From Cerasicoccus maritimus (lineage in GTDB: Bacteria > Verrucomicrobiota > Verrucomicrobiia > Opitutales > Cerasicoccaceae): DNA of 64,000 nucleotides. A model generated the notes under the pieces. It did no database searches. It was not told the DNA's origin and saw nothing but the letters and a program-made list of their open reading frames with translations. Position numbers and translations under genes: made by a program. Position 1 is the stretch's first letter. Each line of letters begins with the position of its first letter. The DNA is taken from assembly GCA_031296935.1 (NCBI GenBank), contig JAVDPD010000012.1, positions 85,495-149,494 of the forward strand. Direction: 5' to 3'. Positions 14,369-16,156 of the stretch are shown here, piece after piece.

Positions 14369-16156
14369 ATGTTCGATGACATCACCATGAGCAAAAAAAC
14401 AGACCGGTTTCCCGACGGATTCATTTGGGGAGCCAGCACCGCGGCCTATCAAATAGAAGGAGCCTGGAACGAAGACGGTAAAGGCCCTTCCGTCTGGGAT
14501 ATGTTTACCCAACAGAAGGATAGAACCTGGAAAAACAGTGATGGCAAAATTGCCTGCGATCACTACCACCGTTACAAAGAAGACATTGCCTTGATGCGAC
14601 AAATAGGCATCAAGGCCTACCGGTTTTCAATCTCCTGGCCTCGCATCATGCCGAATGGCACAGGCAAGGTTAACGAAAAAGGCATCGCCTTCTACGACAA
14701 CCTCATCAACGAGCTGCTCGACAATGATATCGAGCCGTGGGTGACCATCTTCCATTGGGATCTCCCCTACGATCTATTTTTGAGAGGTGGCTGGCTAAAT
14801 CGCAAGTCGGCTGACTGGTTTGCCAACTACACCAAAATACTAGTCGACCGCTTCTCCGACCGCGTGAAGCACTGGATCACAATTAACGAACCACAATGCT
14901 TCATTCAACTTGGCCATAAATCCGGAACCCATGCTCCGGGTTTACAGCTCGGGATGCCCGAAGTGTTACTTGCCGCACATCACACGCTACTCGCACATGG
15001 TCGCGCAGTCTCTGTGATTCGGGAATACTCGAAAAGTAAAAAGCCCATCATCGGCTGGGCACCAGCCTGCTCGGTTTACTGCCCGGCGACCCAGTCCGTC
15101 GAAGATTTGGCAGCCGCCCGCCAAGCATTCAACGGAGTTTTCCCTGATGGAGTGTGGAATAATCGCTGGTGGGGGGACCCCGTTGTGTTTGGCTGCTACC
15201 CGGAAAATGGATTGAGAACTTTCGGGGATGCGGTGCCCAAAGCAACCGCGAGCGACTTCGACATCATCAGCCAACCCATCGACTTTTACGGCTGTAACAT
15301 TTCACACGGCGTCCTGGTTAAAGCCTCAGCAATGGGCGGTCCGGAAAAAGTTGAATCCGGCCAGAACACCAACTTAAGCCTGTATGGATGGCCCCAAGTC
15401 CCCGACTGCATCTACTGGGGTCCGAAGTATATTTCAGAACTCTACTCGCTCCCCGTAGTCATCACCGAGAATGGATTCACCGACATCGATCAGGTTCACT
15501 TCGATGGTGCGGTCCATGATAGCAATCGCATTAACTTCCTGATCAAGCATCTGCTTTCATTGAGGAAAGCGATCAGTGAAGGCATCGATGTTCGTGGCTA
15601 TTTCCACTGGTCCTATTGCGATAATTTCGAATGGCAGGAGGGCTATCGACAACGTTTTGGACTCGTCCACATCGACTACAATACGCAAAAGCGAACGATC
15701 AAAGACTCCGCGTTCACCTATAAGGGCATCGCAGAATCAAATGGGGAAAGCATCAAGATGTTTGCCACTGACAGTGAGGATGAGCTGCCATACATCGTAA
15801 AAGAGGCAGTCAACTACATTGAAAGAAATATCTCCGAACAGTTTAACATCAAGACTCTAGCCAACAAGCTCAGGTGCCACCCAGACTTCCTCAGCCGCCG
15901 CTTCAAGCAACATTACGAGGTCAGCTTAAAAGATTATATCCGGCATGCGCGGATCGAGTTCTCACGCAATTTACTCCGAACAACCAACATCATCATCGAT
16001 GACGTTGCTGACCGTTCAGGATTCTCCGACAGAATTCGCTATAGCAAAGTCTTTCGCGAACTGACCGGCATGACACCCGGGCAGTACCGCAAGCAGTATC
16101 GGGAAACCAGCGACACGTCGCCCAACTTAATTTCGGGCAACGATACACCTCGCTAA
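14369..16156 (+). CDS. GH1 glycosidase fused to an AraC-family DNA-binding domain
   Basis: A 595-residue fusion. Residues about 12-455 form a complete GH1 domain: [20 protein letters not shown], acid/base Glu174 in ITINEP, nucleophile Glu367 in VITENG, and the late [20 protein letters not shown]. Residues about 473-577 form an AraC/XylS domain with two helix-turn-helix units: [20 protein letters not shown], then [20 protein letters not shown] and the family end [16 protein letters not shown]. The reading frame is continuous with a short acidic linker, so this is one gene. The catalytic residues are kept, so it may be an active enzyme, a sugar sensor, or both. No signal peptide, so it acts in the cytoplasm. 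It lies between two GH16 genes and probably regulates the locus. A later ATG at 14387 is an equally possible start. Confidence 0.93.

Follow-up and report, generated by a model that had tools for sequence, protein, structure and literature searches.

How does a gene come to encode, in one reading frame, both an enzyme that cuts sugars and a module that reads DNA, and what would the product of such a gene do? The question is raised by a 64,000-nucleotide stretch of Cerasicoccus maritimus (hereafter the window; G000:C12:85495-149494, from a draft genome of 4.81 Mb in 66 contigs), in which a single open reading frame (ORF) joins a glycoside hydrolase family 1 (GH1) domain to an AraC-type DNA-binding domain. 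In this article, I will argue that the protein is probably a cytoplasmic AraC-type activator that senses oligosaccharides through a crippled copy of the enzyme that it controls. An earlier note on this DNA, made from its letters alone, had proposed that the GH1 domain serves as the sensor of a regulator, perhaps as a near-complete enzyme that even cleaves what it detects; the sensor idea appears well supported by the conserved architecture, the linked glycan genes and a candidate operator, and the cleaving part has been weakened by the changes in catalytic residues described below.

The protein is a genuine fusion of GH1 and a two-helix-turn-helix (HTH) AraC domain. The frame runs without interruption from 14369 to 16156 on the plus strand and encodes 595 residues, as the note had read it. 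Residues 11-459 (14399-15745) match Pfam Glyco_hydro_1 (PF00232) over profile positions 2-452 of 453 with 487 bits against a cut-off of 22.6, a complete GH1 domain that carries both catalytic glutamates, E174 in ITINEP and E367 in VITENG, and that even passes the NCBIfam equivalog cut-off for GH1 beta-glucosidases (TIGR03356; 518 versus 478.5 bits). Residues 497-576 (15857-16096) cover the whole of Pfam HTH_18 (positions 1-80 of 80; 64.9 bits, cut-off 33.6), are joined by matches to Pfam HTH_AraC in two stretches, and resemble the arabinose operon regulatory protein (PDB 2k9s; E 1.6e-11), so that the complete two-HTH domain of the earlier note is borne out as well. The AraC regulators of sugar genes commonly, though not obligatorily, sense with a cupin-like or periplasmic-type domain; neither was found in the fusion, where GH1 is the sole Pfam domain N-terminal to the HTHs, and no signal peptide is apparent by eye at its N-terminus. 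The orthologue in Cerasicoccus frondis (L040) has the same length, aligns without a gap and is 85% identical, with a nonsynonymous divergence (dN) of 0.10 and a synonymous divergence (dS) of 2.3 (saturated) for the frame as a whole; protein and DNA identities are 94% and 79% for the AraC domain, whose dS was not computable, and 65% and 75% for the linker between the domains. Both halves are thus constrained, and the joined frame is neither a reading error nor an assembly artefact. An AlphaFold2 model built on an alignment of 12 fusions (mean pLDDT 79.5, pTM 0.74), a prediction that the note had called for, is likewise consistent with the architecture, showing a predicted (beta/alpha)8 barrel at residues 19-456 and the predicted helices of two HTHs at 475-579, with pLDDT below 50 in the loops 370-380 and 421-428. 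The best Foldseek match to this model in the PDB is the beta-glucosidase Ks5A7 (TMt 0.94; 45% identity), and the best 50 matches listed are GH1 chains only, so the AraC half rests on sequence evidence.

Is this architecture a peculiarity of one genus? A search for it recovered 29 distinct fusions, which I compared with 67 free-standing GH1s, identical GH1 cores being counted once and free GH1s with fewer than 430 aligned residues being dropped; a 30th fusion (L178:9798-11570, minus strand, the fourth in genome G104) stands outside the counts of 29. Within 9.5 kb of the fusion there is a GH16 gene at 21 of the 29 loci, a free GH1 gene at 19 and both at 16, counts that are limited by several fusion contigs ending early. 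Fusions are held by 11 of 372 genomes of the window's order, by 14 of 384 in a sample of its class and by 5 of 387 in a sample of its phylum, all five of the last belonging to the order; over the three samples, they occur inside and outside the order and always inside the class. Since mostly three candidates were scored per genome, extra copies, the 30th fusion among them, were overlooked. Several genomes (G069, G083, G049, G117, G104, G535 and G512) have between two and four fusions that are diverged in sequence and differ in their neighbours, and these may answer to different ligands and, in part, to different sites. A peptide-pattern scan of 84,980 species returned 16 loci, all under Verrucomicrobiota names and 11 of them fusions; viral contigs scanned with six peptide patterns contained no matching stretch; and of 1602 plasmid records that matched, the 12 matches listed are all GH1 matches; 80% of the query is covered at one place in 15 records, two of which, among the matches listed, reach residue 518, there running over an annotated LacI-type neighbour. 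In a tree of 96 GH1 domains, the 29 fusions form one clade (SH-aLRT 98), which adjoins 16 free GH1s (SH-aLRT 91), 15 of them from fusion loci and one not, and the sensor is therefore most simply a duplicate of the neighbouring enzyme that was joined once to an AraC domain. The AraC domains of the fusions are 46-94% identical to one another; the other AraC domains listed from the window's genome are at most 29% identical to that of its fusion.

What, then, distinguishes the duplicate from the enzyme? The window fusion keeps its glycone-binding residues and both glutamates, the acid/base Glu174 (codon 14888-14890, plus strand) and the nucleophile Glu367 (15467-15469, plus), and to this extent the active-site reading of the earlier note stands; what it had overlooked is Ser312 (15302-15304, plus), which replaces the helper tyrosine of the GH1 motif N-x-Y. 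Position 312 is Phe in 26 fusions, Ser in 2 (those of the window and C. frondis) and Tyr in 1, compared with Tyr in 67 of 67 free GH1s, and Tyr also occupies the matching position in Ks5A7, Br2 and a reconstructed ancestral GH1. When the alignment columns of the first 21 fusions and 35 free GH1s were contrasted under fixed cut-offs, six positions discriminated between the two groups, and 312 is the only one of the six that lies, by motif, in the catalytic centre. Further changes are scattered over the fusions: the acid/base Glu is kept in 23 of 29 and is Asp in the other six, the nucleophile is kept in 27 and is Gln or Lys in one fusion each, and the Asn preceding the acid/base has become Ser in five, none of these replacements occurring among the 67 free GH1s. 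Gln28, His129, Trp130 and Trp422 are kept in all 29 fusions and Glu421 in 28. Counting the acid/base, the helper Tyr and the nucleophile together, 28 of 29 fusions are altered versus 0 of 67 free GH1s; over 13 catalytic and glycone-contact positions the figures are 29 of 29 and 6 of 67, and the 30th fusion has Phe at 312 with the remaining 12 positions unchanged.

The cost of losing this hydroxyl can be gauged from mutants, because position 312 maps by the N-x-Y motif to Tyr295 of Thermotoga maritima BglA (TmBglA) and to Tyr296 of Halothermothrix orenii BglA (HoBGLA). As given in excerpts of the published work, HoBGLA Y296F has a kcat about 45-fold lower on cellobiose and 53-fold lower on lactose, with a Km that is up 2-fold and 11%, respectively (PMC4803828), and TmBglA Y295F has a kcat 85-fold lower on pNP-glucoside (PMC9113129); the same excerpts, each citing Gebler et al. 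1995, assign to the helper Tyr the placing of the nucleophile. In addition, seven of the 29 fusions have Tyr430, which by the motif RFGL appears to match HoBGLA F417Y, a mutant described in the excerpted text as having a kcat about 10-fold lower together with a lower Km (PMC4803828). With catalytic residues changed in 28 of 29 fusions, a domain that binds and turns over little or slowly is more probable than a functioning enzyme switch, and the window protein in particular may retain slow residual turnover.

If the protein reads DNA, where would it do so? Comparison of the window's intergenic DNA with that of C. frondis leaves two conserved islands that are alike each other. Candidate operator 1 (11323-11349, plus strand) lies between the divergent genes for the free GH1 and the first GH16, its 3' end 115 bp before the GH16 start, and 178 bp from the GH1 ORF start; candidate operator 2 (18403-18429, plus) lies 106 bp before the gene of a PEP-CTERM repeat protein; and both have the same placement in C. 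frondis (L040:5017 and L040:11994). Of the two regions that the earlier note had singled out for footprinting, 11046-11464 contains candidate operator 1, and 16157-16265 contains no site at the matrix threshold. In the whole genome, a pattern drawn from the two sites is matched perfectly twice, each time in this cluster, and never with one mismatch. However, as the pattern was derived from those sites, their uniqueness alone proves little, and at up to two mismatches the genome gives 20 matches versus 13 for a backward control, so just the two exact matches stand out.

The spacing of the repeat is more telling. When RTCGG..RTCGS pairs were counted at 30 periods in 65.9 kb of intergenic DNA from the 29 loci, 12 pairs fell at period 22 versus a mean of 2.0 (maximum 5) at the 29 other periods, 8 versus 1.86 (maximum 5) when the window and C. 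frondis were removed, and the coding DNA showed no peak at period 22. Looser RTCGG pairs at spacings of 15-18 were also tried and rejected, many of their matches lying inside genes. An iterated matrix finds 67 distinct sites at 27 of the 29 fusion loci, with 3 sites in reversed sequence, and 0 sites in 51 loci that have only a free GH1 (240 kb; shorter and mostly coding). A matrix trained on 15 loci finds 28 sites in all 14 remaining loci at threshold 14 (reversed, 0) and 20 sites in 11 of the 14 at threshold 20, and 16 of the 28 held-out sites match at least 4 of the 5 letters of a CTAAC box at +34 on which the matrix had not been trained. The repeat consists of RTCRG at 0, GRCAY at 10, RTCRG at 22 and CTAAC at 34, four boxes that a pair of AraC domains, each with its two HTHs, would be expected to contact along a single face of the helix.

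Does the repeat travel with the fusion, and does it point anywhere? Among the genomes of the order, the exact general pattern occurs in 9 of 11 fusion holders versus 19 of 361 non-holders (Fisher 1e-9), with 23 sites in the holders (11 of them non-training, in 7 genomes) versus 19 in the non-holders, and read backward it has 10 sites in all 372 genomes; in a mixed set of 36 genomes, it occurs in 16 of 18 holders (39 sites, 22 non-training) versus 2 of 18 non-holders (2 sites), and read backward in none. I then examined 19 stretches around further sites, 17 of them from holders. At the matrix threshold, the holder stretches contain 34 sites, of which 27 point at a called start within 250 bp and 24 have the CTAAC box (26 and 22, respectively, of the 30 that are non-training), compared with the 2 non-holder sites, which have no near gene ahead and no CTAAC box. 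The genes faced by the 27 pointing sites encode GH1 (2), GH16 or proteins like the window's two GH16s (14, including at least one without a Pfam family, L176), GH5 (1), GH42-like proteins (2), an MFS protein (1), PEP-CTERM proteins (2), pilin-like proteins (3), an FAD-oxidoreductase and one unknown protein. Many loci have the fusion and the free GH1 in divergent orientation, their called ORFs 0-503 bp apart, and all 11 sites in such spacers (10 loci) point at the GH1 and away from the fusion (two-sided 0.002 by locus). Of the 67 sites at the 29 loci, 44 point at a start codon no more than 300 bp away, and G486 has a site on a contig other than that of the fusion, 33 bp ahead of where a free GH1 ORF is called to start. 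This orientation would match the expectation for an activator of the enzyme genes.

Considering all of this, I propose that the fusion is a one-component, cytoplasmic regulator of the AraC/XylS type, most likely an activator, whose sensor would have arisen by duplication from a GH1 beta-glycosidase of the neighbouring type and would be catalytically crippled. The GH16 proteins have signal-peptide-like starts and the GH1s and the fusion have none (by eye), and on this ground oligosaccharides set free by secreted GH16s would pass through an importer and meet the free GH1 and the fusion inside the cell. There the GH1 pocket of the fusion would take hold of an imported beta-linked oligosaccharide, probably a GH16 product, by its non-reducing end, with slow or no turnover of the bound sugar as a result of the missing helper Tyr beside the nucleophile. 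Given this route of release, import and degradation, the likely ligand is a beta-linked oligosaccharide whose end has the gluco or galacto configuration. Sugar binding would let the AraC domains of two subunits occupy the 22-bp-period direct repeat, with its four boxes about 11 bp apart; occupied repeats upstream of GH1, GH16 and surface-protein genes would switch those genes on; and the induced free GH1 would destroy the inducer and so end the signal.

Several observations weigh against this account, and the first group concerns the repeat and its owner. Loci L061 and L112 are without a site at the threshold of the iterated matrix, the exact general pattern is absent from two holders, G022 and the genome of the window itself (G000), both sites of the window (scores 18.4 and 25.0) were themselves seeds of the matrix, no site at the matrix threshold precedes the fusion itself or the second GH16 gene in the window, and of the 67 sites 14 have no counted gene nearby and 7 have one behind them only. 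Furthermore, the fusion has a relative with another sensor: at L167:1633-2733 in G535, in a locus that holds several sites, a 367-residue regulator combines a PocR sensory domain (PF10114) with an AraC domain that shares 55% identity with its counterpart in the window fusion. PocR-type regulators of this kind, their AraC domains 44-60% identical to those of the fusions, stand near remote sites in some genomes (G535) and are found at full length with at least 48% identity in 7 of 18 holders (G535, G512, G609, G310, G050, G612 and G546; relatives at L186-L191), and four of the relatives run against Pfam also show PocR. In those genomes the PocR-type regulator may own or share the sites, and co-occurrence by genome alone cannot tell which protein binds the repeat. 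That the repeat belongs wholly or partly to another regulator, above all to this one, with the fusion otherwise employed as a repressor, as a competitor or not at all, is nevertheless unlikely: of the other 11 holders, none showed a PocR-type regulator at the 48% level or above, and 9 have sites; the training loci of the matrix on the Cerasicoccus side come from genomes without one; and a PocR-type query matches nothing but the fusion in the window's genome at E up to 1e-15. Weaker PocR-type relatives (33-38%) in the non-holders G129, G054 and G033 are accompanied by no sites. The existence of the PocR-type relative lowers my confidence in the fusion as owner of the repeat outside Cerasicoccus and its kin, within which it is the likeliest owner, and suggests that one AraC module has been paired with two sensors, GH1 and PocR.

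The second group of objections concerns the active site. Both glutamates survive in most fusions, where a pure binding protein would have no need of them; fusion L048 retains the helper Tyr, but has N310S, N368S and F430Y; and the Tyr column needs just three parsimony changes on the GH1 tree, so the loss in 28 of 29 is mostly one old event that was kept over deep divergence. Might the GH1 domain then be a working, perhaps slower, beta-glycosidase, in a protein that both cleaves its inducer and regulates? The intact glutamates and glycone-binding residues of the window fusion and its score above the beta-glucosidase equivalog cut-off would agree with such a trigger enzyme, which becomes rather improbable against the replacements of the helper Tyr, the acid/base and the nucleophile that no free GH1 shares, and against the linkage of a free GH1 at 19 of the 29 loci. 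A more unusual reading starts from the same residues, in that a nucleophile kept in 27 fusions and an acid/base kept in 23, next to a lost Tyr whose part in positioning the nucleophile is described in excerpts of PMC4803828 (citing Gebler et al. 1995), could mean that the glycosyl-enzyme intermediate is trapped. The DNA-binding ON state would then be a long-lived, slowly decaying covalent sugar adduct, rather than free sugar, and the protein would contain a built-in molecular timer. There is a parallel in the Ada protein, which a covalent mark turns into an activator. I consider this covalent switch quite unlikely, and it cannot be general, as the nucleophile is missing from two fusions (Gln, Lys) and the acid/base is Asp in six; if it did operate, the fusions without a nucleophile would have moved later to plain binding. 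The altered active site might also be that of a chance or decaying fusion without function, and this is highly improbable, being contradicted by 29 fusions in a single clade, by the low dN beside a saturated dS and the 94% identical AraC domain in C. frondis, and by the conservation of both neighbours and sites.

How does a GH1-sensing activator compare with what is known? Like the AraC/XylS regulators AraC, MelR, RhaR and ChbR, the fusion has a C-terminal two-HTH domain and carbohydrate genes around it, and it is predicted to act as a dimer on a direct repeat whose period is close to two helical turns, whereas its sensor is a 450-residue GH1 barrel and not a cupin-like or periplasmic-type domain; the PocR-sensor regulators of the same genomes share its AraC module and stand near similar repeats, and have PocR where the fusion has GH1. 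With the beta-glucosidases of TIGR03356 (TmBglA, HoBGLA, Ks5A7), the window protein shares a full-length domain, both glutamates and the glycone residues; unlike them, the fusions have Phe or Ser for the helper Tyr, a C-terminal AraC domain and an intact paralogue alongside. Enzyme folds as sensors have precedents. The ROK regulators, mostly repressors, include NagC and Mlc, and differ from the fusion in both fold and HTH. According to an excerpt on the ROK family, it unites sugar kinases and transcription regulators (PMC4856308), and excerpts on MocR/GabR describe a whole aminotransferase fold as the sensor beside an HTH (PMC5320631, PMC6917764), there a GntR-type winged HTH with a pyridoxal phosphate enzyme fold, unlike the fusion. 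Closest in logic is the anti-sigma factor RsgI6 of Clostridium thermocellum, in which, as the excerpted report has it, a glycoside hydrolase domain of family GH10 is the regulator's sensor, with very low activity and binding kept (PMC4711584); that protein is extracellular, membrane-spanning and signals through a sigma factor, whereas the fusion has no membrane part that can be seen and its GH1 is joined directly to the DNA-binding domain. The residues of the fusion fit the general pattern of such sensors, a ligand site kept and catalytic residues altered, and its sequence makes it a regulator of the AraC family whose sensor is new, one that would work like MocR, ROK and RsgI6 proteins but belongs to none of these groups. 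Among the matches listed from the open-licence literature, no publication on GH1-AraC regulators was found by title or start of abstract.

If the proposal is true, glycosidase barrels join the enzyme folds that serve as sensors of one-component regulators, and the route to a sugar sensor with matched specificity would be a short one: duplicate a sugar-eating enzyme, drop one catalytic hydroxyl, join a DNA-binding domain and add sites. An enzyme that becomes its own sensor would have its specificity matched for free, and induction of the enzyme would remove the inducer. A candidate operator and regulon are thereby offered for polysaccharide-degrading Verrucomicrobiota, and a GH1 sensor on an AraC domain could serve in oligosaccharide biosensors. 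There is also a warning for annotation, as regulators of this kind would be named beta-glucosidases, the window protein being a case in point.

The remaining genes of the cluster fill in the proposed regulon. The free GH1 and two GH16 genes that the earlier note placed beside the fusion are there, although the GH1 gene extends over 9636-11144 on the minus strand and the start given at 11045 is an internal Met; by Pfam, NCBIfam and alignment, it encodes a beta-glucosidase paralogue with its catalytic residues present and is a probable target. The first GH16 gene (11465-14125, plus; Pfam), whose product has a CBM96 and a signal-peptide-like N-terminus by eye, is another probable target; the second (16248-18284, plus; Pfam) begins 91 bp 3' of the fusion on the same strand. 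Following these is a gene for a T5SS/PEP-CTERM-associated repeat protein with a PEP-CTERM sorting signal (18536-19957, plus; Pfam, NCBIfam), also a probable target, and PEP-CTERM genes in other loci have candidate operators of their own, suggesting a regulon that takes in surface proteins as well. On the other side, on the minus strand, lie the genes of a large protein of 1286 residues without an NCBIfam or Pfam match (5837-9697) and of its 243-residue partner without an NCBIfam match (5130-5861); together with PEP-CTERM surface proteins, they recur beside fusions, the large protein at 16 of 29 loci and a partner of about 240 residues at 12. One relative of the large protein has weak similarity to Verru_Chthon cassette A / GspK (pseudopilin), and candidate operator sites precede some relatives of the large protein or its partner (L043, L059, L063), and control of a pseudopilin-like system may therefore be coupled to that of glycan use.

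A scan of 11000-18600 for sigma-70 promoters gave 3 sites versus 6.2 expected, and I claim no promoter. Downstream of the cluster, two adjacent genes (20184-21806 and 21813-23405) are sulfatase-like by eye, and a sulfated glycan could be part of the diet.

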